The notes under the pieces were generated by a model that did not search any database, was not told the DNA's origin, and saw only the letters and a list, made by a program, of their open reading frames with translations. Shown here one piece after another: positions 25,216 to 55,506 of a stretch of DNA of 64,000 bases. Location of the stretch: contig NZ_KE383968.1 in NCBI RefSeq assembly GCF_000423005.1, positions 329,482 to 393,481 on the forward strand. The letters run 5' to 3'. The DNA comes from Gelidibacter mesophilus DSM 14095 (GTDB lineage Bacteria > Bacteroidota > Bacteroidia > Flavobacteriales > Flavobacteriaceae). Position numbers and translations under genes: made by a program. Numbering within the stretch: position 1 is the first letter of the stretch; every line of letters begins with the position of its first letter.

Positions 25216-26145
25216 ATGCTTAAAGTAAACAACATTATCTTTAGTTACGACAAAGAAGACGTCGGACCCCCCGTACTCAATGGTATTGACTTTACCGTAG
25301 AACCAGGCGAACATATTTCAGTTATAGGCGAAAGTGGGTCAGGGAAATCCACACTTTTGAAATTGATTTATGGCGAATTTGATTTGACGGAAGGTGAGAT
25401 TTTTTGGAAAGACACTGAAATTTTAGGTCCTAAATATAATCTTGTGGTGGGCTATGAGTTCATGAAATATGTTGCCCAAGAATTTGATTTGATGCCCTAT
25501 ATCACTGTGGAAGAAAATATTGGTAAACATCTATCCAATTTCTTTCCGGAGGAAAAAAAAGAGCGTGTCCAAGAACTTTTAGAGGTTGTAGAATTACAAG
25601 ATTTTGCAAAAACTAAAGTAAAAACCTTAAGTGGCGGTCAAAAGCAGCGTGTGGCATTGGCAAGAGCCTTGGCAAAACAACCAGAAATCATCTTGTTGGA
25701 CGAACCCTTCAGCCATATTGATAATTTTCAAAAACAGTCCTTGAGAAGAAGTGTTTTTAACTATCTAAAATATAAAAATATTGCCTGTATTGTGGCCACT
25801 CATGACCGTGAAGATGTGTTGGGGCATGCCGATAAAATGATAGTTCTGCACGATACAAGAATCATAGCTAACAAATCGCCTCAAGAACTTTATAAAAATC
25901 CTGAAATGCCTTTAACTGCATCATTTTTTGGAGAATTTAATCTTATCAATGATGAAATAATCTATGCACATCAACTTCAAATTGTTGAAGAATCAGATTT
26001 GAAAGTAGCAGTGCACCACAATTACTTTAAAGGCCACTATTATTTAATTGAAGGACATACCGAGGATGACATTATTTTTTTCGAAAATCAAACAGCCTTA
26101 CAAAAAAACTCAAAGGTCTATCTTAAAATCCTCATTCTGCAATAG
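25216..26145 (+). CDS. ABC transporter ATP-binding protein
   Basis: This 309-residue ABC ATPase has Walker A GESGSGKST (near 37), the signature LSGGQKQRVALARAL (near 138), Walker B IILLDEPFSH and the H-loop ATHDRED (near 194). The N-terminal nucleotide-binding domain is followed by about 90 residues with short beta-strands, resembling the regulatory tail of sugar/iron-type ATPases (UgpC/FbpC/PotA class). No permease or binding protein is adjacent, so the partner and substrate are unknown. The last 14 bases overlap the end of the convergent phosphopantetheinyl transferase gene. Confidence 0.88.
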   Translation: MLKVNNIIFSYDKEDVGPPVLNGIDFTVEPGEHISVIGESGSGKSTLLKLIYGEFDLTEGEIFWKDTEILGPKYNLVVGYEFMKYVAQEFDLMPYITVEENIGKHLSNFFPEEKKERVQELLEVVELQDFAKTKVKTLSGGQKQRVALARALAKQPEIILLDEPFSHIDNFQKQSLRRSVFNYLKYKNIACIVATHDREDVLGHADKMIVLHDTRIIANKSPQELYKNPEMPLTASFFGEFNLINDEIIYAHQLQIVEESDLKVAVHHNYFKGHYYLIEGHTEDDIIFFENQTALQKNSKVYLKILILQ

Positions 26146-26704
26146 CCAAGGCTCCAAAACAACCGTGATGAGATAAGGACAACTGCGCTTCTTGTAAATT
26201 TCCGTTAACATAAAATTGCGGTACTCCCATGTCATTTTTAATGACCTCAATAGTATCTGGAGAGAGGTTCTTCAACTCAGCATAGGATTTAGCAGCACAC
26301 TGGTAACTTTGTGTATTCTGAACTTTATAATCTGTATTTATAAATTGAAATACCTTAGACATCCATTCAGGCTTAATGTAAGCCGTAGTTTGGATAAAAT
26401 TTCGATGCGTTTGGGTTACTGTAGGTATCGATTTATTTTGAAAGATAACCTGGCCTTTATCTGAATGTGTGCTAAAACATTTAAAATCTTTCGGATTGAA
26501 ATGGGGAACTCTATTGCCCCTAGCAATAATTTTATAGGCACTTTCCTTCATGCTCCATAAATGCCATATATTATGGAATCGAGATCCATTTGACAGAATA
26601 AACTCCTGTTCTTCTTCAGAAAAAAGCTTATCCAAAAACCGCTGTTCCTGCCATCGGGAATTTTGATTTGCAAAAATTAGATCGACAATATCGTTACCAA
26701 TCAT
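26132..26704 (-). CDS. 4'-phosphopantetheinyl transferase (AcpS-like)
   Basis: This 190-residue protein transfers the phosphopantetheine arm from CoA to a serine of an ACP. The N-terminal motif IGNDIVDL carries the Mg-binding Asp5, and WSMKESAYKI near residue 50 is the conserved (W/F)xxKES(A/F)xK block. The length, longer than the approximately 120-residue AcpS, fits lineage variants found next to secondary-metabolite ACPs. I start it at the ATG at 26704, whose A is the last base of the ACP stop codon (TGATG); the longer frame uses only a TTG. It most likely activates the adjacent ACP. Confidence 0.87.
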   Translation of the reverse strand: MIGNDIVDLIFANQNSRWQEQRFLDKLFSEEEQEFILSNGSRFHNIWHLWSMKESAYKIIARGNRVPHFNPKDFKCFSTHSDKGQVIFQNKSIPTVTQTHRNFIQTTAYIKPEWMSKVFQFINTDYKVQNTQSYQCAAKSYAELKNLSPDTIEVIKNDMGVPQFYVNGNLQEAQLSLSHHGCFGALAIAE

Positions 26705-26955
26705 CAAGCGCTTATTTTAGAGCTCACAATGTCCATGGCTGCTTTTACCGAAAGCATGCGCTCCATTTCATCATTTTCTATTCGAATATCAAATTCGTCT
26801 TCCACATCCAATATCACATCCACCAAATTGGCCGAATTGATCTTTAAATCGCCCACAAATGTAGTATGCTCAGAGAGATTATTAAACGCTTCCTCATCTT
26901 GGATGTAGGGTTTAACGATGGATTTTAACTTGGTAATTAATTCTTCTTTTTTCAT
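26704..26955 (-). CDS. acyl carrier protein of the type III PKS cluster
   Basis: This 83-residue ACP has four predicted helices. The phosphopantetheine attachment site is Ser41 in LKINSANLVDVI, with Asn where the common DSL motif has Asp. The following VEDEFDIRIENDEMERM is the acidic helix II/III recognised by partner enzymes. It is followed, with a 1-base overlap, by a phosphopantetheinyl transferase, and lies 48 bases downstream of the ketosynthase. It carries intermediates of the dedicated acyl assembly line and may hand the finished chain to the type III PKS; the last step is inference. Confidence 0.9.
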   Translation of the reverse strand: MKKEELITKLKSIVKPYIQDEEAFNNLSEHTTFVGDLKINSANLVDVILDVEDEFDIRIENDEMERMLSVKAAMDIVSSKISA

Positions 26956-27003
26956 GTAGGCTTATGTTATCGAATTCCATTAGAACAGAGTGTGCGCAGG
27001 AAA

Positions 27004-28272
27004 TCAATTATACTTCTTAAAGATAATACATGCGTTCACATCACCAAAGCCAAAACTTGCCTTTGCCGCAATTGTTATCTCTTTTTTAATCATTTGTTTT
27101 GGAATTTTCTCATCTGAAATCAACTCCAAAATTCCTGGATGCACATCTTCGCAATTGAGGTTTGGAAACACAAATTGATCTTTCAACTGTAAAACCGTGG
27201 CCACACTTTCGATACTTCCAGCAGCAGCCAAACAATGGCCTACCATCGATTTCAACGAATTAATATAGGGGAAATCAGAACCTCTTCGATCCAACGCCTG
27301 TACCCAATTTTCAATTTCGAGACTGTCTTTTGAAGTGGCCGTTAAATGACCATTGATAGTGTCGATGGCATTGGCATTAATTCCAGAATTTTTAAGTGCT
27401 TCCAAAATGCAACGTTGCACTGCTTCAGGGTTGGGCGCCGTTAAAGTGCCACCATTTCGTTGTCCGCCAGAATTGATATGACCGCCCAAAACCTCCGCAT
27501 AAATTGTTGCACCACGCTCTAAGGCAGATTCCAGAGATTCCAAAACCAATGCTCCTGCACCACTGCCAGGCACAAATCCACTGGCACTTGTGCTCATGGG
27601 CCGCGATCCTTCTTCCGGTGCATCGTTATGTTTGTAAGTCATCACGCGCATCGCATCAAAACCTCCCCAAATATAGGCACCATCATCACTGCAACTGCCA
27701 ACTAACATGCGTTTAGCCTGTCCGCGTTTTATACGTTCATAGCCCATTAATAGCGCTTCCGTTCCGGTGGTACACGCCGATGAATTAGTCGTCACTTGAT
27801 TTCCCAAGCCCAAAATACCACCAAGATAGGCGCTGATGCCACTGGCCATAGTTTGCAGCACCACGGTACTTCCCAAACGTTTGACCTCGCCAGCATCCAA
27901 TTTATAAATGGCCTCTCTAAACTTTTCAACACCTGAAGTTCCCGTTCCGAAAACACACCCACTATCATAATCAAGCGTACTTTCTGGGTTAATGTCAAAA
28001 CCGGCATCCTTCCAAGCATCCATTCCTGCCATACATCCATATAAGATGCCCGAACTATTAAATCCTCGGAGTTGTAATGGCGTTAAATACTCTAGCTTTT
28101 TTTCTTCTGAAACCTGAGGAATACCTCCAATGCAACAGGAAAAATTCGCATCTTCTAAATTTTGGTGAAATGTAATTCCAGAGACACCTGATTTGATAGC
28201 GTTTGTAAATGCCCCAAGTCCAACTCCATTTGGTGCAACAACACCCATTCCCGTAATAACAACTCTATTCAT
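27004..28272 (-). CDS. beta-ketoacyl-ACP synthase (FabF-like), cluster-specific
   Basis: This 422-residue KAS II-type condensing enzyme has an intact Cys-His-His triad: Cys167 in NSSACTTG, His in NGHLTATSKDS near residue 309, and His in MVGHCLAAAG near 345. It extends ACP-bound chains with malonyl-ACP. In typical FabF the second motif is AHGTST; NGHLTATS is a variant found in cluster-associated synthases. Its place between the dehydratase and ACP genes says it serves the pathway-specific acyl chain rather than primary metabolism. Confidence 0.91.
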   Translation of the reverse strand: MNRVVITGMGVVAPNGVGLGAFTNAIKSGVSGITFHQNLEDANFSCCIGGIPQVSEEKKLEYLTPLQLRGFNSSGILYGCMAGMDAWKDAGFDINPESTLDYDSGCVFGTGTSGVEKFREAIYKLDAGEVKRLGSTVVLQTMASGISAYLGGILGLGNQVTTNSSACTTGTEALLMGYERIKRGQAKRMLVGSCSDDGAYIWGGFDAMRVMTYKHNDAPEEGSRPMSTSASGFVPGSGAGALVLESLESALERGATIYAEVLGGHINSGGQRNGGTLTAPNPEAVQRCILEALKNSGINANAIDTINGHLTATSKDSLEIENWVQALDRRGSDFPYINSLKSMVGHCLAAAGSIESVATVLQLKDQFVFPNLNCEDVHPGILELISDEKIPKQMIKKEITIAAKASFGFGDVNACIIFKKYN

Positions 28273-28387
28273 GTTTACTTCCCACGAAAGTGGGAATCTT
28301 ATTAAAAGTTATAATATTATTTTCTTAAAGATATGATTGAATTTTAAAATCTTGTTCTATTAAACTCCTAGATTAACTCCGTTGAAC

Positions 28388-28867
28388 CTAAAGGTTTCCT
28401 GCTTTCCTGTCTGTCGACGACGCAGGCGCAGGAATTCTTAGCATGCCCGAAATCACCCCTCTGCACACCAATTCATTCTTCTCATTAAACATCTTTAACT
28501 TGCATTTTAATTTATTAAACCGGAACACTTCTTTTTCCGAAACCACCCTTACTTTTTCTCTTGGGAAAACCGGCAAGAAGAAATCAACTTGACTTGAGGT
28601 CATTGCTATTTGAGGTTGTAAAATTTCAGAAATTTCATCTTTCATCAGATATATTCCTAAGCAAACCACCCCTATCTGCGCCATACATTCCGTTAAAATT
28701 ACGCCTGGTGTTACGGGATGATCTTTAAAATGACCTTTATAAAAATATTCGGTTTCTTTAAAGGTATAATTTCCGGTAATGCCTTCTTCGGAAATGACAG
28801 TCAAGTCCTCTACAAAAAGGAAGGGTTTTTCGTAAGGCAATAAGGCTAAAATGTTTTTTGAGGTCAT
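28388..28867 (-). CDS. FabZ-like 3-hydroxyacyl-ACP dehydratase with repeat-derived tail
   Basis: This 159-residue hotdog-fold protein carries the FabZ active site: His46 in YKGHFKDHPVTPGV and Glu60 in VILTECMAQIG. It dehydrates 3-hydroxyacyl-ACP to trans-2-enoyl-ACP. The conserved part ends at GVISGMLR. The final 17 residues (RIPAPASSTDRKAGNL) and the stop codon lie in a dispersed repeat whose other copy is intergenic at 8603-8629, so the native C-terminus seems to have been replaced. Confidence 0.88.
   Translation of the reverse strand: MTSKNILALLPYEKPFLFVEDLTVISEEGITGNYTFKETEYFYKGHFKDHPVTPGVILTECMAQIGVVCLGIYLMKDEISEILQPQIAMTSSQVDFFLPVFPREKVRVVSEKEVFRFNKLKCKLKMFNEKNELVCRGVISGMLRIPAPASSTDRKAGNL
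28409..28436. repeat. dispersed GC-rich repeat, copy 2 (inside a coding region)
   Basis: This 28-base element aligns with 8603-8629 with few changes. It lies in the 3' end of the FabZ-like gene and encodes residues near IPAPASSTD. Confidence 0.6.
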
Positions 28868-28889
28868 CTGTTGCTTTTCAATACTTTTA

Positions 28890-30125
28890 TTAATTTCTTT
28901 TTCCCCACATTTCTGTCGGCCAGTCCAAACCTACTTTTTGAGGAGTATCATCTACAAGAATCAGATTCTCCGCGTCAAATTTAAGTTTAAGGCTCTCTTG
29001 GCCTCTGTACATAATAACCACATTAGCGTGCTCGTTGAAAATTGCAGCATCGATATTGCCTGTACTCCAATTAAAGGGCCATTCCGAAACTAAATCAGTG
29101 ATTTTTTTAGGACCTTCAGCACTTTGCATCTTGTTCCTTTTAAATGGTATTCTGACATATTGGTCTCCTTTAAAAAAATAAACATGCTTTGTTTTGGGAT
29201 TAAAAAAAGCAGCATCCAGATGTCCTTGTCTCCAATAATCTGACAGATTCGAAAATAAGTTATTCAACGATTTAGGATAACCGTTTTCAATTGTAGACGA
29301 ACCTGGTTGTAACGCTATAAATTGTTGGTCTTTAAATAGATAAATTAAATTTTCAAAGGTATTAAAATAGGAAGCATCTATATTTGACTTCCAGATTTCG
29401 GGTAAGTCACTGAGCTCTTCTGATATTGTTGAATAAGCAGTAGTGGAATCCTTGGTTTTAGCCATGATATCTCTAAGGAAAAGGCTTTGAAGGTTTTGAT
29501 CTTGCTTTTTACCCGAGGTTTCCATAGTGTAGGCAGCGTCAACCTTTGGCCAAAGCACAGATTTACAATAATTAGAATTATTTATACAGTTTTCATAAAT
29601 GGCACCGTAATCCGTTTTATTATCCGGTTTGGGAATAATACTGCCCTCTATCACATATTTTGAATTGACAAGATCTTTATCGCTAAAACACCCTGAAACG
29701 GACATAGCATGCCAATGACTGGAAACTACAAAAAGATAATCGCCCTCATTAATTAGTTTATTTCCATCTGAATGTCTTAAATCGCGACTATAACAATAAT
29801 TCTGAGCTGTACTTTTAGATTTTTCTTCTTTATAAATTATGTTTTCAGGAACTCCCTTTTCAATCAACACATCAGCCATTATAGTAGCTTCACAAATGCT
29901 GGAGCTATGTGCGCCACAACCGCCAGATACAATAATATAATCAACGTCTTTTTTTGAAGTGAATAGATTAAATCCAACTTCAGCACGTGCTACGGAAGTT
30001 TCTAAGTTTCCAGAGCCAAGGATGAGTAGTATCGTTTTTGAAGTATTGGTTTCATTAGTTTGACAAAATCCTGATGAGGAAAATAGAATAATTAGAATCC
30101 ATGTTTTATAAGTTATAAATCTCAT
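28890..30125 (-). CDS. DUF218 (YdcF/ElyC/SanA-like) protein fused to hemopexin-like repeats
   Basis: The protein has 411 residues. A Sec signal peptide (residues 1-21, ending SGFC-Q) is followed by a DUF218 domain, about 33-180: LILGSGNLETSVARAEVG, YIIVSGGCGAHS, EKSKSTAQNYCYSRDL and VVSSHWHAMSV. The rest holds at least three hemopexin-type blades: IDASYFNTFENLIYLFKDQQ near 251, LDAAFFNPKTKHVYFFKGDQ near 303 and IDAAIFNEHANVVIMYRGQ near 360. DUF218 proteins affect envelope or cell-wall processes; hemopexin blades bind proteins or ligands. The fusion is unusual and its secreted location makes it an odd member of a biosynthetic operon. Role unknown. Confidence 0.8.
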   Translation of the reverse strand: MRFITYKTWILIILFSSSGFCQTNETNTSKTILLILGSGNLETSVARAEVGFNLFTSKKDVDYIIVSGGCGAHSSSICEATIMADVLIEKGVPENIIYKEEKSKSTAQNYCYSRDLRHSDGNKLINEGDYLFVVSSHWHAMSVSGCFSDKDLVNSKYVIEGSIIPKPDNKTDYGAIYENCINNSNYCKSVLWPKVDAAYTMETSGKKQDQNLQSLFLRDIMAKTKDSTTAYSTISEELSDLPEIWKSNIDASYFNTFENLIYLFKDQQFIALQPGSSTIENGYPKSLNNLFSNLSDYWRQGHLDAAFFNPKTKHVYFFKGDQYVRIPFKRNKMQSAEGPKKITDLVSEWPFNWSTGNIDAAIFNEHANVVIMYRGQESLKLKFDAENLILVDDTPQKVGLDWPTEMWGKRN

Positions 30126-30167
30126 TGCTTCAAGGTATTGTAAATTTTAATCAGCAGGCTTAAGATA

Positions 30168-30965
30168 TCATGATACATGTTCTCCGCCATCCACAGGAAT
30201 CACACATCCATTGATCCAGCTTGCTTCATCCTTACTCAACAGATAAACGACGTTGGCCACATCTTCGGGAACAGTCAATCTTTTAAAAGGATTTCTTTTT
30301 AAAGTATGCTCCTTCAGTTCCTCGCTACCCGGAATCATCCGTAAAGAGGCCGTATCCGTTACACCAGCTTGAATGCAGTTGGCACGGATGCCGAAAGGTG
30401 CATATTCCAAGGCGATATTGCGGGTTATGGCTTCTAAAGTAACTTTTGCAGCCGAAACTGCTGCATAGTTTTTCCAAGCTTTGGTATTGCCTTCGCTTGT
30501 AAAACTAATGATGCGTGCATCTTCAGCAAATAATTTTGCCTCAAAAACCGCTTGGGTCCAATCGTATAAACTGATGGCCATGGCGTTGATGGTCAGATTA
30601 AAATCATCTGTATTCAAAGTAGGCTGATCCTCTGAAAACATGGGTTTTAGATTGCCTTTGGCAACACTGTGCACCAAGGTGCGAATACTCCCATTTTCTC
30701 CTAAATGGGTTTTTAATTCAGCAAGCATCTCGTTTCGTTTCTCCACTTTAAAAGCATCGGCATTAAAACCAACAAATTGAACACCTGAATCACGGATGTT
30801 GTCAAATTCGGCTTCAATAATGTCCTTATGAGTTCTTGGGTTACGGTGTATAATACAAATATTCATACCATGTTCTGCCAACTTTTTTGCTGTTGCCAGA
30901 CCCAATCCGCTGGAGCCTCCTAAAATGAGTGCCCAATAATTTTTATCTTGAAATTCCTTTTTCAT
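30168..30965 (-). CDS. SDR-family enoyl-ACP reductase-like/ketoreductase-like oxidoreductase
   Basis: This 265-residue SDR has the cofactor loop LGGSSGLGLATA at the N-terminus and the active site NYAAVSAAKVTLEAI with Tyr-x6-Lys, the spacing used by FabI enoyl reductases rather than the usual Tyr-x3-Lys. A VHSVAKGN motif replaces the canonical NNAG. In the cluster it would reduce enoyl- or ketoacyl-ACP. Both alternatives stay open, but FabI-type spacing favours the enoyl reductase. I start it at the ATG at 30965 (MKKEFQDKN); an in-frame ATG four codons upstream is possible. Confidence 0.82.
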   Translation of the reverse strand: MKKEFQDKNYWALILGGSSGLGLATAKKLAEHGMNICIIHRNPRTHKDIIEAEFDNIRDSGVQFVGFNADAFKVEKRNEMLAELKTHLGENGSIRTLVHSVAKGNLKPMFSEDQPTLNTDDFNLTINAMAISLYDWTQAVFEAKLFAEDARIISFTSEGNTKAWKNYAAVSAAKVTLEAITRNIALEYAPFGIRANCIQAGVTDTASLRMIPGSEELKEHTLKRNPFKRLTVPEDVANVVYLLSKDEASWINGCVIPVDGGEHVS

Positions 30966-30998
30966 AATATGTCCCATGAAAGTGGGATTCTCTTTTAA

Positions 30999-32051
30999 CT
31001 ACCATTTTAATAAAATTCGTTGTGCCGAAAATCCAGGTCCAAAACTTAACATCAATCCAACATCGCCCTTAGGTAGCTTTTGATCCATAAAGCGCTCCAA
31101 CACATAAAGCACCGTTGCACTGCTCATGTTGCCATACAATTTAAGAACTTCTTTGGTATCATCAATGTTTTTTCCAAGAGAACCGAACAGCTCTTCAACG
31201 GTTTGCACAATTTTTTTACCGCCAGGATGAAAAATAAGATGATCAACATCAGCAATGGCCATTTGGTTACGTTCTAAGAAAGGATGAACAATTTGCGGAA
31301 AATGAGTGGAAATAGTTTCTGGAACGGTTTTGTCCAAAATCATCTGTAATCCTGTATTGACCAAATTAAAACCCATCATTTGCTCAGCATCATAAAAATG
31401 ATACATGGCTTCGTCCACAATTTCCGGACCTTCTTCATCTTCATAAGAAGACAGAATTACACTAGCCGCTCCATCACCAAAAATGGCCGCACTTACAATA
31501 TTGGCCATGGAATAATCGTCGAGCTGAAACGTCGCCGTAGGAGATTCTACCGCAATAACCGCAGCGCGTTTATTGGGATTTGCCTTTAAAAAATTCTTGG
31601 CATAAATAATTCCCGAAACACCTGCCGCACAGCCCATTTCAGTAACTGGCAAACGCACAATATCTTGGCGCATTTTTAATCGGTTGATCAAATAAGCATC
31701 TAATGAAGGAATCATAATTCCGGTACAACTCACTGTAATGATATAATCGATATCCGTAGGTTGAAGTTTTGCTTTTTCGAGGGATTTCAATACTGCCTGC
31801 TCTCCTAATTTGATGACTTCTCTAGAGTAGATAGCATTTTTTTCTTCAAAGGACGTATTCAAAAAGACTTCTTCAGCATCCATAATGGAATAACGCCTAT
31901 CAACCCCAGCATTTTCAAATAACTTGATAACTTTTCTCTGAAAGCGATCGTCATGCCCCAACAACCAAACCTTTAGATAAGGAATGATATCTTTGGTTTC
32001 CCTAGTGTATTTAGGTAATTGCTTGGCAACTGCGGTTATTTTTACTTTCAT
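30999..32051 (-). CDS. type III polyketide synthase
   Basis: This 350-residue thiolase-fold homodimer of the chalcone/stilbene synthase family has an intact Cys-His-Asn triad: Cys141 in EMGCAAGV, His275 in IFHPGGKKI and Asn308 in YGNMSSATV. VSCTGIMIPSLDAYLINRL (near 108-126) is the family signature. These enzymes load an acyl starter from CoA or ACP, add malonyl-CoA units and cyclise to resorcinols, pyrones or related rings. The adjacent ACP/KS/DH set suggests a dedicated long-chain or unsaturated starter. The methyltransferase and flavoprotein genes are on its upstream side. Confidence 0.93.
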   Translation of the reverse strand: MKVKITAVAKQLPKYTRETKDIIPYLKVWLLGHDDRFQRKVIKLFENAGVDRRYSIMDAEEVFLNTSFEEKNAIYSREVIKLGEQAVLKSLEKAKLQPTDIDYIITVSCTGIMIPSLDAYLINRLKMRQDIVRLPVTEMGCAAGVSGIIYAKNFLKANPNKRAAVIAVESPTATFQLDDYSMANIVSAAIFGDGAASVILSSYEDEEGPEIVDEAMYHFYDAEQMMGFNLVNTGLQMILDKTVPETISTHFPQIVHPFLERNQMAIADVDHLIFHPGGKKIVQTVEELFGSLGKNIDDTKEVLKLYGNMSSATVLYVLERFMDQKLPKGDVGLMLSFGPGFSAQRILLKW

Positions 32052-32202
32052 CTTTGTGATACAATTTTTTAATGGAGTCTGATGACGCTGATTATTTATG
32101 ACTTAATTTTTTTGACACGGATTACTCCATTCTTATGATGATTTGGCACTGATTTCAAAATAGCATATCTTAAAGATTTTTCAAATCCCAAATACCTCAT
32201 CC

Positions 32203-32916
32203 CTAATCTTTCGCAAGAATCCACTGATAACGAAATGCCCATTTCCATTTAAGTATAAAATTGCTATTCAGTTGTTTTGATAAATTGACCAGTTCATTTC
32301 GCTTAAATCCTCTCAACACTGACGTTAATCCATCCGCAATGATCATATTATTTTTTATTGGAACTGTGATCAATTTGAACAAATAATAGGCCAACCAATG
32401 TCTGTGCAAATCATTGATCACAATGCCAATCTTTGCATTTTTCAACAGGTATGTCAATAATTCCAATAATAGCGCTTCCTTAAAATGATGAAGAAACAAA
32501 GTGGTAATAACGATATCATAATGAATGGCCTTGAATTCATCAGAAAACACATTTAGATGCCTATATTCAATATTATCGTAATCTTTTGACAATTGAGCGG
32601 CATAATCTGTCGCATTTTTATTGGCATCGATCCCAATCAACTTAAACCTATACCCCTCCTTTTTGCCGAACTTTGAAATGGTCCTTAAAATATCACCACC
32701 ACCACAACCCAGATCAATGATGGTAATAGGTTGTGATTTAGAGTGGTTTTTCAATAATAATTGAAGTCCGTTGAGTGTCACCAAATTTCCTCCAAGCAAC
32801 TTATTAATGATCGCCAACTTATCCAAGGTATCATGAAGTACGGCGCCCTCAATGGAAAAATCATCCATGATTTCTTCTGCTTCCGTTCTATATGTTGTAT
32901 TCACGAAAAAGCTCAT
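32203..32916 (-). CDS. class I SAM-dependent methyltransferase
   Basis: This 237-residue protein has SAM motif I TIIDLGCGGGDIL near residue 66, motif II LIGIDANKNATDYA and the later DIVITTLFLHHF block, as in the UbiE/UbiG-type branch. It probably C- or O-methylates the ring made by the type III PKS. It overlaps the upstream flavoprotein gene by 4 bases (ATGA), so the two are translationally coupled. Confidence 0.85.
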   Translation of the reverse strand: MSFFVNTTYRTEAEEIMDDFSIEGAVLHDTLDKLAIINKLLGGNLVTLNGLQLLLKNHSKSQPITIIDLGCGGGDILRTISKFGKKEGYRFKLIGIDANKNATDYAAQLSKDYDNIEYRHLNVFSDEFKAIHYDIVITTLFLHHFKEALLLELLTYLLKNAKIGIVINDLHRHWLAYYLFKLITVPIKNNMIIADGLTSVLRGFKRNELVNLSKQLNSNFILKWKWAFRYQWILAKD

Positions 32917-34052
32917 TTTATAATTATTGGCTTTCCATGGGTCATCTTGATAATTTGAGGCACTAAAGATGGCATTGTTTTGAGCGCAACCAGTGATAAA
33001 TTGGCCAAGATTGTGTTATCGAATAAATTGGCCACAACATGCCCAACTTTCAAGCGGTTTCTGAAAGTCTGATTCCAGGTCGTTTCATAGGATTTCTCTA
33101 ACATATCCCGCGATCCAATCTTTTCTTGGACAAAATCAACAACACGCTCTGACGCTATTTGAGCGCTTCTAATGGCCATGCTCATGCCGTTTCCACAAAG
33201 TGGATGAATCATTCCAGCGGCATCACCACACATCATGATATGCTCTTGGACCGGTTGTTTTTGCTCAAACGAAATTTGACTAATCGTTAATGGCGCTTCA
33301 AAAACAGGCACGGAGTTTTCAAAAATAGATTTCAGATACCTGTTTTTGAAAAGAACTTTCCGTTGGAATTCATCAATATCCTTATATTTTTTGAATGCTT
33401 CAAAATCAGTAATATAACAGAGATTAATGCTCTCATCTTCTACTTTAGATACTCCACAATAGCCTCCCTCAAAATTGTGCAACGCCACCAAATCTTCCGG
33501 AAAATCACCTTTAACGTGCGTTTTTACTGCAAGATAAGGCGATTTGTTCTTAATGAAATTTCGGTTCAATTTCACATCCAAGTGCGTTCTTTTACCATAG
33601 GCACCAATAACAATTTTTGAAACAAAATGACCGTTTGCCTTCGTTTCAACTTTAAAATCATCTTTTAGAAATTGCACTTCAATCACCGTATCCTGTACAG
33701 GCAATGCGCCATTTTCAATGGCTTTATTATAGAGGGCCTGATCCAAAGTGTAACGGCTAATACCAAAACCGCCTAAGGGCAAATGGGCTGTAATCAGTTT
33801 ATTATTAGTGGTTGAAATATCTAATCTTTTGATTTTTTTAGCACCCATTGCAAACACATCAATATCCAAGAATTTTAAGTATGGCAGGACCTCATTACTA
33901 ATATATTCGCCACACACTTTATGTCGAGGATAGGAATTCTTCTCGATAAGCAGTACTTTAAGGTCATGCTTTCGAAGATGGATTGCAGCGGACAAACCGG
34001 CCAATCCTCCTCCAATTATAATGACATCATAATACGATTCTGATAGTTCCAC
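32913..34052 (-). CDS. FAD-dependent oxidoreductase, geranylgeranyl-reductase-like
   Basis: This 379-residue flavoprotein of the GGR/PHBH superfamily has the FAD-binding GGGLAGLSAA (14-23), the family motif PRHKVCGEYISNEV (42-55) with Cys47, and the second FAD motif MCGDAAGMIHPLCGNGMSMA near residue 270. GGR proteins reduce isolated or polyene double bonds; the related hydroxylases oxidise aromatic rings. Here it could reduce or oxidise the polyketide. The start codon is GTG at 34052; no in-frame ATG is better. It is the first gene of the cluster. Confidence 0.84.
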   Translation of the reverse strand: MELSESYYDVIIIGGGLAGLSAAIHLRKHDLKVLLIEKNSYPRHKVCGEYISNEVLPYLKFLDIDVFAMGAKKIKRLDISTTNNKLITAHLPLGGFGISRYTLDQALYNKAIENGALPVQDTVIEVQFLKDDFKVETKANGHFVSKIVIGAYGKRTHLDVKLNRNFIKNKSPYLAVKTHVKGDFPEDLVALHNFEGGYCGVSKVEDESINLCYITDFEAFKKYKDIDEFQRKVLFKNRYLKSIFENSVPVFEAPLTISQISFEQKQPVQEHIMMCGDAAGMIHPLCGNGMSMAIRSAQIASERVVDFVQEKIGSRDMLEKSYETTWNQTFRNRLKVGHVVANLFDNTILANLSLVALKTMPSLVPQIIKMTHGKPIIIK

Positions 34053-50205: not shown

Positions 50206-51343
50206 ATGTTATTTGTCATATCATAATATCACCTCTTCATTGGGTTTTGATTCGAACATCGTTTTCGAACATCTTAAAAACCAAAAAAGTGCAATTCAAC
50301 TTGTGGAAGATGCCACCCGCTTTTACAAATCGTTTCACGGCGCTGTAATTCCAACCCAAACGTTAAGCGCTGCATTTCAATCCATAAACGCACAGTCAGA
50401 ATACACCCGACTTGAAGAAATGTTAATCCTGTCGCTTTCAAAAACGATAAAAGCGTCAGCAATTGAATTTAATGGCCGGGTCGGACTCATCATTTCTACT
50501 ACCAAAGGGAACATCGATGTTTTGAACGGACAAAATTACTTTCCAAAAGAACGTGCCTATTTAAGCCAATTAGGATATATTCTGAAAGATTATTTCGGTT
50601 TTAAAAATGAAGCCATTATCATTTCCAACGCTTGTGTTTCTGGTGTTCTGGCGGTAACGATTGCCAAACGCTATCTCCAAGAAGATGTTTACGATCATGT
50701 ATTTGTAGTTGCGGGAGATTTGGTGTCTGATTTTGTGGTGTCGGGATTCAATTCTTTTCAAGCCATGAGCAACGTTCCTTGCAGGCCCTACGATAAAAAT
50801 CGGACTGGCATTAATTTGGGCGAGGTGGCGGCTAGTGTTTTGGTCACTTCAGACAAAGCAAAACTTTCCGAAGACGCCGTTGAACTGTTAGGTGAAGGAA
50901 GCTGCAATGATGCCAACCATATTTCTGGCCCATCACGCACTGGTGAAGGACTTTACCGAAGCATCACGTCGGCATTAAAAGAAGCAAATCTTAAACCAAA
51001 TGACATCGATTATCTTTCAGCACACGGAACAGCGACCCTGTTCAATGACGAAATGGAAGCCATCGCTTTTAATAGAATAGGATTGAGCAAGACGCCCCTA
51101 AATAGTTTGAAAGGTTATTTTGGCCATACTTTAGGCGCCTCAGGATTACTGGAAACTATTATTGGAATGCAATCGCTATATCAGAACACCTTGATTGCTT
51201 CCGCAGGATTTGAAGCTTTGGGCGTTTCAAAACCGCTCAATATTATCACAAAAACAACCGTAAAAGAAGTACAAACCTTTTTAAAAACTGCTTCTGGATT
51301 TGGGGGTTGCAATACCGCAGTCCTTTTCAGAAAAGTATCCTAA
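50198..51343 (+). CDS. beta-ketoacyl synthase of the flexirubin cluster (complete triad)
   Basis: This 381-residue ketosynthase has the complete Cys-His-His triad: Cys146 in SNACVSGV, His in SAHGTATLF near 270 and His in YFGHTLGAS near 306. It fits the ApeO-like group of aryl-polyene synthases: SNACVSG rather than TACASG. It probably pairs with another ketosynthase or chain-length factor of the cluster. The 8-base overlap with the thioesterase couples their translation. Confidence 0.89.
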   Translation: MTKCYLSYHNITSSLGFDSNIVFEHLKNQKSAIQLVEDATRFYKSFHGAVIPTQTLSAAFQSINAQSEYTRLEEMLILSLSKTIKASAIEFNGRVGLIISTTKGNIDVLNGQNYFPKERAYLSQLGYILKDYFGFKNEAIIISNACVSGVLAVTIAKRYLQEDVYDHVFVVAGDLVSDFVVSGFNSFQAMSNVPCRPYDKNRTGINLGEVAASVLVTSDKAKLSEDAVELLGEGSCNDANHISGPSRTGEGLYRSITSALKEANLKPNDIDYLSAHGTATLFNDEMEAIAFNRIGLSKTPLNSLKGYFGHTLGASGLLETIIGMQSLYQNTLIASAGFEALGVSKPLNIITKTTVKEVQTFLKTASGFGGCNTAVLFRKVS

Positions 51344-51350
51344 ACAACGA

Positions 51351-52412
51351 ATGACAAAAAAAACAATCAGAGCCGCAGACGCCTTATTGGAAGCCCAAAA
51401 AATAGCTTTCGCACCTTTTATCTTTCAATCATCAGTCACCTTAAAAAAACTTAGGGTTTTTGACCTAATTTTTGAAAGTCGCGACCAAGGCGGCATTACT
51501 ATTAGTGATATTTCTGAAAAACTAGGCATCAGTCGCTACGGTCTTGGCGTTCTTTTAGAGTTTTCTGAAAGTGCCGATATTGTCACTAAATCTGAAAATG
51601 GCGCCTACGAACTCACAAAAATCGGCTATTTCCTAAATTATAACAAGACCGTTAACGTCAATCTCAACTTTACGCATGACGTGTGCTACAAAGGTTTGTT
51701 TCATCTCGATGAAGCTATTGCAACAGGAAAACCTTCAGGATTAAAGGAGTTAGGTCAATGGGATACCATTTATGAAGGCCTGTCGCAACTCACCCCAAAG
51801 GAGCAACAATCGTGGTTTGAATTTGATCATTATTATTCCGATGGAGTTTTTGAAGAAGCTTTAAAACGCGTTTTTAAAAATCAGCCAAAACTATTATTTG
51901 ATATTGGTGGCAATACGGGGAAATTCGCCTTACAATGTTTTAATTATGACGAAAATATCCAAGTAAAAATCATCGATTTACTTGGGCAATTAAATAAAGC
52001 TCTAAAAAATATAGGAGACGCTGGATTTGAAGAGCGCGTTAGCGGACAAGAAATAAATTGGTTAAAACCCAATCCTAAAATTCCAGCAGGCGCCGACGTG
52101 ATTTGGATGAGTCAGTTTTTGGACTGTTTTTCAGAAGATGAAATCCTTAAAATTCTCTCTACTTGTGTCGCTTCGATGAATGCTCAAACGGAATTGATCA
52201 TCATTGAAACCTTCACAGACCGACAGGAATATCCTATGTCAAAATTCATTTTGGAAGCTACCTCACTATATTTTACTGTAATGGCCAACGGCAACAGCAA
52301 AATGTATCCTTCCACGGTATTTAAAGATTTAATTATAGAAGCCGGATTAATTATTAGCGAAGATTTGAAACTTGGAGAATATCACACCATGCTTGTCTGC
52401 AAGAAAAAATAA
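51351..52412 (+). CDS. SAM-dependent O-methyltransferase (winged-helix N-terminus)
   Basis: This 353-residue protein has an N-terminal winged-helix dimerisation domain (KLRVFDLIF, ISDISEKLGISRYGLGVLL) and a Rossmann methyltransferase domain with DIGGNTGKFALQ near 187. Later WMSQFLDCFSEDE and MLVCKK are typical of plant-type O-methyltransferases. Flexirubins are often methylated on the aryl ring or hydroxyl, so it may do that. I start it at the ATG at 51351, 7 bases after the ketosynthase stop; the upstream frame would overlap that gene. Confidence 0.85.
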   Translation: MTKKTIRAADALLEAQKIAFAPFIFQSSVTLKKLRVFDLIFESRDQGGITISDISEKLGISRYGLGVLLEFSESADIVTKSENGAYELTKIGYFLNYNKTVNVNLNFTHDVCYKGLFHLDEAIATGKPSGLKELGQWDTIYEGLSQLTPKEQQSWFEFDHYYSDGVFEEALKRVFKNQPKLLFDIGGNTGKFALQCFNYDENIQVKIIDLLGQLNKALKNIGDAGFEERVSGQEINWLKPNPKIPAGADVIWMSQFLDCFSEDEILKILSTCVASMNAQTELIIIETFTDRQEYPMSKFILEATSLYFTVMANGNSKMYPSTVFKDLIIEAGLIISEDLKLGEYHTMLVCKKK

Positions 52413-52418
52413 GCCGCT

Positions 52419-53036
52419 TTGGATGAAACCTTTCACATATCGTCCTATTGTCACATTAAAAGTAGTAGTATCCTGCTTGACGGGACAGTATTGTTTTCAA
52501 GTTCCATTCAAGAGTTTTCTCCCTTTATGAAAAGTGCCGTACAGCATTTAGAGACGAAATATCCCAAGTTTTACAAAATGGACAATTTAAGTAAATTGGC
52601 ATTTTTAGCTGCTGATATCTTGTTAAAACAGAACAAACTGACTTCCGATAAAGCGCAAAATATCGCCATCATTTTATCAAACAAATCGTCCAGTCTTGAC
52701 ACCGACAGAAAACACCAAGCTTCATTTAGCGATCTTAATAACTTTTTTCCGAGTCCATCGGTATTTGTCTATACCTTACCCAATATCTGCATGGGTGAAA
52801 TAAGCATCAAACATCAACTGCATACTGAAAATTGTTTTTTTATCTTTGACCACTTTAATGCCGATCATTTGTGGCTGAATGCCCAAAGTCTTTTGAAGCG
52901 AAAAAAAGCTGAAAAAGTCTTATGCGGTTGGGTCGATTTTGATGATAAAGATTACGAAGCTTTCTTATATTTGGTAGAAGAAAATGGTATTATTGCACAT
53001 ACCCCTAACAACATAAAGAGATTATATACAACATGA
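52419..53036 (+). CDS. degenerate ketosynthase-fold protein (PF13723-like)
   Basis: This 205-residue protein has the pattern FPSPSVFVYTLPNICMGEISIKHQL near 110-134, typical of the beta-ketoacyl synthase-like N-terminal domain (PF13723) found next to aryl-polyene genes. It lacks the Cys and both His of an active ketosynthase. The start codon is a TTG at 52419; no in-frame ATG fits. It overlaps the ACP by 4 bases. A structural or chain-length role in the ketosynthase complex is an inference. Confidence 0.72.
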   Translation: MDETFHISSYCHIKSSSILLDGTVLFSSSIQEFSPFMKSAVQHLETKYPKFYKMDNLSKLAFLAADILLKQNKLTSDKAQNIAIILSNKSSSLDTDRKHQASFSDLNNFFPSPSVFVYTLPNICMGEISIKHQLHTENCFFIFDHFNADHLWLNAQSLLKRKKAEKVLCGWVDFDDKDYEAFLYLVEENGIIAHTPNNIKRLYTT

Positions 53037-53290
53037 CTGAATTACGACAAGAATTAAAGGAAAAAATCATTGAGCAACTGAATTTAGAAGAATTTGCCGT
53101 TGCGGATATTGACGATGATGATGCACTTTTTGGTGATGGATTAGGTTTGGATTCCATTGATGCTTTAGAACTTATTGTTATGTTGGATAAGGATTACGGC
53201 ATCCAATTGACCGATCCTAAGGAAGGAAAAGAGATTTTTAAATCTATTGCTGTTTTGGCCAACTATATTACGGCCAACCGAACAAAATAA
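53033..53290 (+). CDS. acyl carrier protein of the flexirubin cluster
   Basis: This 85-residue ACP has the phosphopantetheine site Ser41 in GLGLDSIDALEL, with acidic helices on both sides. It carries the polyene chain during aryl-polyene assembly. It overlaps the degenerate ketosynthase gene by 4 bases and precedes a ketosynthase by 9. Confidence 0.9.
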   Translation: MTELRQELKEKIIEQLNLEEFAVADIDDDDALFGDGLGLDSIDALELIVMLDKDYGIQLTDPKEGKEIFKSIAVLANYITANRTK

Positions 53291-53299
53291 CACCAAAAT

Positions 53300-54490
53300 A
53301 TGGGCGTTGCTATTACCGGAATGGGTATTATTTCTGCAATTGGACATTCCGTTGAAGAAAACAAGACGTCTTTAATGGCCTCAGAAAGCGGTATTGGTCC
53401 ACTAAGGCATATTCAAACCAAGAATTCAAAGCATATAAAGGTTGGTGAAATTTCACTTTCCAATACCCAATTGTCCAAACAGTTGCAGCTATCAGAAGAT
53501 CATAGTTTTACCCGAACGGGTTTATTGGGACTTTTTGCTGCCAAAGCAGCGCTTCAAAATGCGAATATCATTACTAATGCAGACCACAAAACAGGTTTCA
53601 TAACCGCCACTACGGTGGGCGGCATGGATATGACGGAACTCTTTTTAAAGCAGTTTGCCACGGATGTTGACGCTCAAAAATATATACAAAGCCACCACGC
53701 CGGTGATGCCACCCAAAAAATTGCCGATGCCCTCGACATCACAGAATTTGTCACTACTATCAGCACCGCATGTTCTTCTGCGGCCAATGCCATCATGCTC
53801 GGTGCACGAATGATCAAAGCAGGGAAATTGGACCGTGTTATTGTTGGCGGTTCAGATCCTCTTTCAAAATTTACCATTAACGGATTTAAAACCTTGATGA
53901 TTCAATCAGACGAACCTTGCGCCCCTTTTGATGCCCATCGTAAAGGTTTGAATTTAGGAGAAGCCGCAGCCTATCTGGTCCTGGAATCTGATGAAATCGT
54001 TCAAAAAGAAAATAAAAACGTATTAGCTTATCTTTCTGGATATGGCAATGCCAATGATGCCTTTCATCAAACGGCATCTTCTGAAAATGGTGAAGGAGCA
54101 TTTTTAGCCATGCAAAAGGCCTTGAAAATGGCTGGATTGAATCCCAATCAAATCGATTATGTCAACGCTCACGGCACCGCAACACCTAACAATGATCTTT
54201 CTGAAAGTGTCGCCATCCAACGCATTTTTGGAAAAAACAATCCTGATTTCAGTTCTACCAAAGCTTTTACAGGACATACCTTGGCAGCAGCAGGCGTCGT
54301 GGAAGCTGTGTTTTCAATAATTTCTCTTCAAGAACAGACGGTATTTCCCAACCTTAATTTTAAATCCGCAATACCAGAAACCGGATTAATACCTGTAACT
54401 TCAGTGGTCAAAAAAGAGTTATCCCATGTGTTATCCAATTCCTTCGGATTTGGCGGCAACTGTTCTACACTTATTTTCTCAAAGGCATGA
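53300..54490 (+). CDS. beta-ketoacyl synthase of the flexirubin cluster (FabF-like)
   Basis: This 396-residue KAS II-type ketosynthase has Cys158 in STACSSAAN, His in NAHGTATPN near 292 and His in TGHTLAAAG near 326, a complete triad. The C-terminus NSFGFGGNCSTLIF is the usual family end. It probably performs the main elongations of the polyene chain. It overlaps the CLF-like gene by 4 bases, forming a KS-CLF pair. Confidence 0.91.
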   Translation: MGVAITGMGIISAIGHSVEENKTSLMASESGIGPLRHIQTKNSKHIKVGEISLSNTQLSKQLQLSEDHSFTRTGLLGLFAAKAALQNANIITNADHKTGFITATTVGGMDMTELFLKQFATDVDAQKYIQSHHAGDATQKIADALDITEFVTTISTACSSAANAIMLGARMIKAGKLDRVIVGGSDPLSKFTINGFKTLMIQSDEPCAPFDAHRKGLNLGEAAAYLVLESDEIVQKENKNVLAYLSGYGNANDAFHQTASSENGEGAFLAMQKALKMAGLNPNQIDYVNAHGTATPNNDLSESVAIQRIFGKNNPDFSSTKAFTGHTLAAAGVVEAVFSIISLQEQTVFPNLNFKSAIPETGLIPVTSVVKKELSHVLSNSFGFGGNCSTLIFSKA

Positions 54491-55506
54491 AAAAAGTTTA
54501 TATCCATAGCGCAGTAACCATATCGGCTCAAAACACCTTTGAAAACAGCGAATTTCTGAATGAAATTAAAGCCATACCCTTAAAAATCGCTCCGGCACAC
54601 TACCCTAATTATAGAGATTACATTGCTCCTGCAGCTTCAAGACGAATGGCTGCCGGTGTAAAAATGGGTGTTACCGCGGCAACTAAAGCTCTCGAAAAAG
54701 CGAATTTAAAACATCCTGATGCCATTATCATTGGAACAGGCATGGGCTGTATTGAGGATACTGAAAAGTTTTTAAATAGTATTATCGCCAACGATGAAGC
54801 CTTTTTAACTCCAACCGCATTTATTCAATCTACCCATAATACAGTGGGAGCACAAATAGCTTTGGGACTCAAATGTAAAGCCTATAATAATACATTTGTT
54901 CATGCGGCATTATCTTTTGAATCGGCACTTATGGACGCCCAATTACTCATACAACAAGAGGAAGCCCATCATATTTTAGTTGGCGGTGTTGACGAATTGG
55001 GCAAGGAAATCATCAATTATATCCAATTATTGGAAGACGCTAAGTACAAAGGCATCCAAGTGCCTTTTGGAGAAGGTGCCTCCTTTTTTGTAGCATCTTC
55101 AGACACCGAAGAAAACGCTGTTGAATTAGTAGATATGGATGTTTGTAGTACCGCTTGTCAAGAAACAATCCAAAATAAATTAAAGTCTTTTCTGATAAAA
55201 AACAAGATAGAACATGCGGATATTGATGCTTTAGTGCTGGGCAGAAATGGGGATGCTTTTGATGTTTACTATGATAGCGTTACTAGTCTGTTTAAAAATG
55301 CGACTAAATTACACTATAAACATTTAAGTGGCGAATTCTACACCGCCTCACCATTTGGAATGTGGGTCGCATTTGAGATTTTAAAGCGTCAGGAAATCCC
55401 AGAGGCTCTTATTTATGATGGTAAGACAAAAGCTGAGATTCATACCATCCTGCTTTACAATCAGTTCAAGGGTCGTGATCACAGTTTTATACTTTTGAAA
55501 CGATGA
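54487..55506 (+). CDS. chain-length-factor-like ketosynthase homologue
   Basis: This 339-residue thiolase-fold protein is paired with the preceding ketosynthase. The active-site positions are lost: Cys is absent in YNNTFVHAALSFES near 136-149, HGT is replaced by LGRNGDAFD, and the final His stretch reads YKHLSGEFYTASPFG. Aryl-polyene clusters use such an inactive partner (ApeC type) to set chain length. It is the KS-CLF arrangement of type II PKS. Confidence 0.82.
   Translation: MKKVYIHSAVTISAQNTFENSEFLNEIKAIPLKIAPAHYPNYRDYIAPAASRRMAAGVKMGVTAATKALEKANLKHPDAIIIGTGMGCIEDTEKFLNSIIANDEAFLTPTAFIQSTHNTVGAQIALGLKCKAYNNTFVHAALSFESALMDAQLLIQQEEAHHILVGGVDELGKEIINYIQLLEDAKYKGIQVPFGEGASFFVASSDTEENAVELVDMDVCSTACQETIQNKLKSFLIKNKIEHADIDALVLGRNGDAFDVYYDSVTSLFKNATKLHYKHLSGEFYTASPFGMWVAFEILKRQEIPEALIYDGKTKAEIHTILLYNQFKGRDHSFILLKR

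Follow-up and report, generated by a model that had tools for sequence, protein, structure and literature searches.

Bacterial type III polyketide synthases (PKSs) have been described both as acceptors of carrier-bound chains and as partners of tailoring enzymes. In Azotobacter, the type III PKSs ArsB and ArsC receive chains from the acyl carrier protein (ACP) of the ArsA fatty acid synthase (FAS) (PMC6274091), and CylI, which forms an alkylresorcinol, is reported to accept substrates bound to either coenzyme A (CoA) or ACP (PMC8086630). Triads of a PKS, a methyltransferase (MT) and an oxidoreductase have been tied to alkylresorcinols in planctomycetes (PMC10896814) and, for the actinobacterial PkqABC type, to polyketide quinones (PMC9927152). 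Koreenceine (PMC6498172) and the M. marinum type III PKSs that lie beside type I PKS genes (PMC5916927) represent different systems. Type III PKS (T3PKS) clusters made up 10.74% of the biosynthetic clusters of Flavobacteriaceae in a survey of 2,680 genomes (PMC10734526) and 9% in another survey of the family (PMC7440613), and Kordia antarctica carries one such cluster (PMC7477175). Here we analyze a T3PKS cluster of Gelidibacter mesophilus DSM 14095 that lies in a stretch of 64,000 nucleotides (contig NZ_KE383968.1, positions 329,482 to 393,481; the window). An earlier reading of the window (the original prediction) had proposed the cluster as the best candidate there for an undescribed lipid or polyketide pathway. 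Consistent with this, the accessible open-licence literature yielded no characterized product and no description of the module discussed below for flavobacterial T3PKS clusters; work in subscription journals may exist.

Nine open reading frames (ORFs) on the minus strand (26132-34052) encode, in transcription order, a flavoprotein of the GGR superfamily, an MT, the type III PKS, a short-chain dehydrogenase/reductase (SDR), a DUF218-hemopexin protein, a FabZ-like dehydratase (DH), a FabF-like ketosynthase (KS), an ACP and a phosphopantetheinyl transferase (PPTase), with intergenic gaps of -4, 151, 21, 42, 22, 115, 48 and -1 bp. The same-strand arrangement and the families named in the original prediction were thereby confirmed. 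We propose that the locus is a two-unit operon, in which the first unit probably assembles an acyl chain on a dedicated ACP and the PKS probably takes this chain directly from the ACP and closes a ring, which is then hydroxylated and methylated. Gene content, conserved catalytic residues and a strict linkage of PKS and KS were observed directly.

The original prediction pointed to a type III PKS that is fed with an ACP-bound starter; this mode of feeding is not new, ArsA with ArsB/C and CylI being precedents. As in the ars system of Azotobacter vinelandii, where a dedicated FAS provides the type III PKSs with their ACP-bound starter, chain building is encoded beside the PKS; the ars enzyme is a type I FAS, whereas here KS, DH, enoyl reductase (ER), ACP and PPTase are separate and type II-like, and the Gelidibacter operon adds a flavoprotein and an MT. 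CylI is the nearest solved structure (the PKS model, pLDDT 78.6, matched CylI first, with E 1.5e-31 and TM 0.85, then PKS11) and likewise receives a carrier-bound chain. Its chain, however, is loaded on the free-standing ACP CylB and extended by the type I PKSs CylD and CylH, unlike the discrete KS and DH found here, and the window PKS is only 26-27% identical to it. With the HidABC, planctomycete and PkqABC triads, whose products are alkylresorcinols, hierridins and polyketide quinones, the locus shares a type III PKS in operon with an MT and an oxidoreductase, and in this arrangement it agrees with them; FAS-like genes go unmentioned in the accessible parts of their descriptions. Overall, we regard the pathway as real, widespread and of a known kind, set apart by its supply module and mosaic in its origin.

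A profile scan of genome contigs gave at least 516 confirmed PKS relatives, and the best 80 loci were analyzed by scoring their gene content with hidden Markov models built from the cluster proteins. Nearly all of these loci are labelled as Flavobacteriaceae, and three metagenome-assembled genomes (MAGs; L049, L052, L081) as other groups. The order of eight genes, without the DUF218-hemopexin gene, is intact in 60 of the 80 and differs in 11 more by the absence of the SDR only, and the KS/ACP/PKS neighborhood is conserved, which answers the synteny check that the original prediction had suggested. Median gaps between neighbors in the eight-gene order range from -4 to 31 bp, and the PKS-DH gap is 87 bp in the 11 SDR-less loci. 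Five loci are interrupted by contig ends (L051, L069, L085, L094, L106), one carries a broken KS (L048), and two hold GGR-MT-PKS-SDR only (L047 and L071). Because the gene order is conserved across dozens of loci, the neighborhood is more than chance, and chance adjacency was rejected.

The nine-gene cluster as first drawn was reduced to these eight conserved genes, since the DUF218-hemopexin gene (28890..30125, minus strand; PF02698, PF00045), which sits between SDR and DH, occurs otherwise in just two of the 80 loci (L034 and L036, both Gelidibacter salicanalis) and was rejected as a pathway member. It has the lowest GC content at third codon positions of the nine genes (27.9%) and is a local insertion outside the pathway. 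Its protein is ElyC/YdcF-like, and the N-terminus looks by eye like a signal peptide. Flanking genes labelled by eye as ABC ATPase, peptidase and RtcB-like were likewise rejected as members, their adjacency not being constant.

Linkage of KS and PKS was then followed at the genome level. Of 59 genomes (G. mesophilus included), 15 carry the cluster PKS, and the same 15 carry a KS that shares 60% identity or more with that of the cluster, the next-best KS among the matches listed being at most 36% identical. Of 299 Flavobacteriaceae genomes, again with our own, 103 have the PKS; the KS occurs in 101 genomes, every one of which is among these 103, and the two PKS-bearing genomes without the cluster KS are G556 and G703, the latter 76% complete. 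Both genes lie within 5 kb of each other in 97 of the 101 genomes (median gap 1,280 bases). The four exceptions have them on different contigs (G488, G686 and G562, with the halves of G562 distant from contig ends) or about 355 kb apart on a single contig (G602). In Subsaximicrobium wynnwilliamsii, DH-KS-ACP-PPTase lies about 78 kb from GGR-MT-PKS-SDR (L047 and L202, the latter taken as the same record). This genome, G602 and G562 share a break between SDR and DH, which leaves GGR-MT-PKS-SDR and DH-KS-ACP as the two halves. Since both halves are kept after the operon has split, these cases argue for a working link of PKS and KS, the events being few and the genomes related. The genes for carrier-bound chain building are genetically tied to the PKS, as is characteristic of an ACP-fed system.

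The residues that the original prediction had named (PKS Cys141-His275-Asn308, KS Cys167 and ACP Ser41) proved exact. Alignments comprised the window and those loci whose match spans at least 75% of the gene. The PKS (30999..32051, this and all following genes on the minus strand), with Chal_sti_synt_N/C above cut-off, is the sole PF00195 match above cut-off in the Gelidibacter genome; a chalcone synthase fold in the model, the Cys-His-Asn triad and a GFGPG-like loop place it in the type III family, and C141, H275 and N308 are invariant in 81 of 81 rows. In the FabF-like KS (27004..28272; PF00109/PF02801 above cut-off, FabF model under cut-off), C167 is invariant together with H309, K341 and H346 (75/75). 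For the ACP (26704..26955), a Pfam scan at the curated cut-off gave zero matches and the NCBIfam model NF009104 matched under its cut-off (6e-11); Ser41, within a conserved NSAN motif, is invariant in 74/74 rows. The hot-dog DH (28388..28867; FabA-like family PF07977 above cut-off, FabZ models under cut-off) keeps H46 and E60 in all 77 rows.

The SDR (30168..30977; adh_short_C2 above cut-off) is of the enoyl-ACP reductase type, the ER of the operon, and an optional part. Tyr-X6-Lys is the SDR motif of the enoyl-ACP reductases FabI and FabL, and the Tyr and Lys (Y171 and K178 in the window) are kept in 70 of 70 rows. The protein is nearer FabL than the FabI named in the original prediction: FabL is the top NCBIfam model (4.6e-45, under its cut-off), and the FabL structure 3oic is the top PDB match. 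A role as ketoreductase was rejected on the basis of the motif and of FabL as top model and structure. The PPTase (26132..26704; ACPS family, PF01648 above cut-off at 1.2e-13), also optional, keeps five motif positions in 74/74 rows; an ATG start at 26704, 1 bp inside the end of the ACP gene, is preferred over a TTG at 26707. Genome-wide there are four PF01648 matches, this one included, and nine KS-domain matches. On the tailoring side, the class I S-adenosylmethionine-dependent MT (32203..32916; Methyltransf_25 and other Pfam families above cut-off) overlaps the GGR gene by 4 bp and keeps three positions of its DLGCGGGD motif in 80/80 rows. The first gene, with a GTG start (32913..34052), encodes the flavin adenine dinucleotide (FAD) protein of the GGR superfamily, with Pfam FAD families above the curated cut-off; its top NCBIfam model is TIGR02032 (4.8e-35, under its cut-off), it is UbiH/QhpG-like too, and we propose that it acts as a ring hydroxylase or oxidoreductase.

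From these assignments a route can be drawn. Unit 1, consisting of DH-KS-ACP plus PPTase and ER where present, would build an acyl chain on the ACP of the operon. In this scheme the PPTase would arm the ACP, the KS, probably primed by a primary acyl-ACP, would extend the chain, housekeeping FabG would reduce, the DH would dehydrate and the ER would saturate. The cluster genes include neither a ketoreductase nor a malonyl transferase nor a KASIII; the supply line must therefore borrow from primary metabolism, and it is not the complete private line that had been claimed. That FabG and FabD are borrowed is our assumption. In unit 2, made up of PKS, MT and flavoprotein, the acyl group would move straight from the ACP to Cys141 of the PKS, which would add malonyl-CoA units and close an aromatic ring (or a pyrone), after which the FAD protein may hydroxylate and the MT methylate the ring. 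The expected product would be a methoxylated alkyl- or alkenyl-resorcinol, hydroquinone or quinone lipid. The hand-over from ACP to PKS, the chain length, the ring type and the order of tailoring are inferred. In Azotobacter, the residue associated with resorcinol-type cyclization is Trp281 of ArsB, with Gly284 in ArsC. If this route is correct, one conserved pathway explains many of the T3PKS clusters of Flavobacteriaceae, type II-like feeding of type III PKSs joins the known type I ways, and operons with the ER, without it, or split form a natural series for how the starter sets the product.

Several observations weigh against the two-unit operon. Neither the ER nor the PPTase is constant. 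The ER is absent in 14 of 88 rows, and its presence requires 7 changes on a quick tree of these rows, of which starred branches make 6 unavoidable (L144 was left out as an apparent duplicate of L062). Relocation of the ER in the ER-less clusters was rejected, as whole-genome searches found it in none of the 10 ER-less genomes tested (of the 14 rows) and detected it in both controls. Winogradskyella pacifica and Polaribacter irgensii are examples of ER-less strains, and the related Polaribacter glomeratus has the ER. The PPTase, rightly seen in the window as an ACP-activating enzyme belonging to the cluster, is not a constant member: it was unmatched in two of eight wider module loci (L145, L149) and in all five further ACP-holding loci (L204, L206, L207, L208, L210). 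Because these seven loci gave no match, the private PPTase is dispensable, and because ER and PPTase are both missing in some loci, KS, DH and ACP are the core and the other two are optional. In addition, L059 lacks ACP and PPTase beside its KS, and L071, a MAG, keeps GGR, MT, PKS and SDR, but its genome yielded no KS of the cluster type (best KS 33% identical). Two of three basic CoA-contact positions of the PKS are kept in 81/81 rows, the third being Asn, Gly or Ser, a mixed pattern. The NCBIfam matches of ACP, KS, DH and SDR all fall under the curated cut-offs, so that names such as FabF-like and FabL-like express kinship only. The MT tree described below does not unite the module-bearing rows in one clade. 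Finally, genomic linkage is no proof of substrate hand-over, and the genomes are related.

The variable ER bears on a second reading, which we consider unlikely. Here KS, DH and ACP, together with a ketoreductase from outside the operon, would produce an unsaturated or polyene acyl chain in the manner of aryl polyenes and flexirubins, and the ER, where present, would trim this chain or saturate a part of it. The resulting compound, carrying an aromatic head, would be a pigment or an antioxidant. The KS-DH-ACP logic is indeed shared with these systems of the Bacteroidota, and KS-DH-ACP is the constant core while the ER comes and goes on the tree and is missing from whole genomes. Yet a housekeeping enoyl reductase could substitute for the lost ER, which is moreover retained in 74/88 rows. 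Clusters of this type have a KS with a chain-length-factor partner, a dedicated ketoreductase, and either DarA/DarB or type II KS pairs; the eight-gene set has no chain-length factor or second KS and no dedicated ketoreductase. To our knowledge, flexirubin and aryl polyene clusters use no type III PKS. Identity between the cluster KS and the KS of the same genome that we label flexirubin/aryl-polyene-like is only 30%, and the flexirubin system, which uses DarA/DarB (PMC9606717), is a different one.

The CoA-contact positions kept by the PKS fit another possibility, namely that the PKS, like that of other triads, uses ordinary fatty acyl-CoA or primary acyl-ACP and that the KS-ACP-DH module, merely co-transcribed, makes a second chain or an unrelated lipid. 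Triads of other Bacteroidota without an adjoining module, and L071 with PKS, MT, GGR and SDR in the absence of the cluster KS, point the same way. Against it, the operon has no acyltransferase for a second chain, the KS was never found without the PKS in the 299 genomes, and it is kept with the PKS after splits; we regard this account as quite improbable. It is very unlikely, in our view, that the pathway leads to alkylpyrones through lactonization by the PKS, as by PKS11 and BpsA-like enzymes, with the MT making a pyrone methyl ether. In the PKS tree the enzyme does share a side with PKS11, among Bacteroidota PKSs, three of which were shown to stand beside ICMT-type methyltransferases; but the cluster MT is not of the ICMT type, the conserved flavoprotein fits an aromatic ring, and CylI, on the same side, yields a resorcinol.

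How the two-unit operon arose was examined across the phylum. A type III PKS C-domain match is present in 190 of 395 Bacteroidota genomes, and from these 190 we picked 39 loci by hand (7 of the family, 13 of the rest of the class, 19 of the wider phylum). The KS-ACP-DH module adjoins the PKS in 7/7 family loci, in 1/13 class loci (L159) and in 0/19 wider phylum loci. Nine class loci hold a PKS-MT-GGR triad (L150-L156, L158, L161), and matches to both tailoring genes also occur in ten wider phylum loci, where the GGR score is weak (25-32 bits) in six; the triads without module showed no KS, ACP or DH match within the fetched stretch. In four loci (L160, L162, L177, L178) the PKS lies beside a protein of 163-169 aa, which is an ICMT-type methyltransferase in the three tested (L162, L177, L178).

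The tailoring enzymes of the window are kin to those of the nine class triads (GGR 37-46% and MT 32-46% identity), whereas the PKS is only 28-33% identical. Against the eight module loci the rank is reversed, with PKS at 64-88%, GGR at 46-64% and MT at 33-62%. In a tree of 46 PKSs, drawn with a midpoint root and with some long reference branches, the nine module-linked PKSs form one group (support 100/100), which falls with PKS11, CylI, THNS and six PKSs including the ICMT-linked ones. A split of 100/98 separates the side of the window PKS from all 21 rows that we labelled triad-type and puts it in a subfamily other than theirs. The GGR and MT trees, from which 13 of the 39 loci were left out for want of a usable GGR or MT match (L157, L160, L162, L166, L171, L173, L175-L181), each place the module clusters together with the nine triads of Bacteroidia and with four rows of the wider phylum (100/100 each). 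PKS and tailoring genes have different histories. Because the tailoring enzymes are shared with the triads and the PKS is of another subfamily, the simplest account is that an older tailoring operon had its PKS exchanged, together with the gain of the supply module. A fuller scenario is possible, if on balance doubtful: in an ancestor of part of the Flavobacteriaceae a PKS of the CylI/PKS11 type would have replaced the triad PKS, and a discrete, carrier-bound chain-building unit would have been gained. Repeated ER loss would then have changed the side chain back and forth between a saturated and an unsaturated form. About one third of the family (103/299 genomes) would make the product, a lipid of the quinone type that might serve as an additional redox or membrane lipid.

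Further features of the locus were recorded. A near-identical hairpin, TCCCACTTTCRTGGGA, stands directly upstream of the start codons of KS (28279-28296) and SDR (30971-30988); it has five exact copies genome-wide, two of them inside the operon, and looks like a repetitive extragenic palindromic (REP) element. The final ~15 residues of the DH (28388-28432) lie outside the matches to relatives and resemble translated palindromic repeat DNA, of which a genome search for further copies returned only the sequence itself. In two loci a second methyltransferase, 35% identical to that of the window, lies between ACP and PPTase (L058:13852-14547 and L060:13924-14619). Small ORFs in operon gaps of eight loci (L039, L044, L047, L048, L063, L065, L073, L095) and those of L080, L092, L098 and L109 resemble GIY-YIG proteins or REP-associated transposases. 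Elsewhere in the window, at 50270-55000 (genome C2:379751-384480), a KS-type gene group resembles, by look, a flexirubin/aryl polyene cluster.

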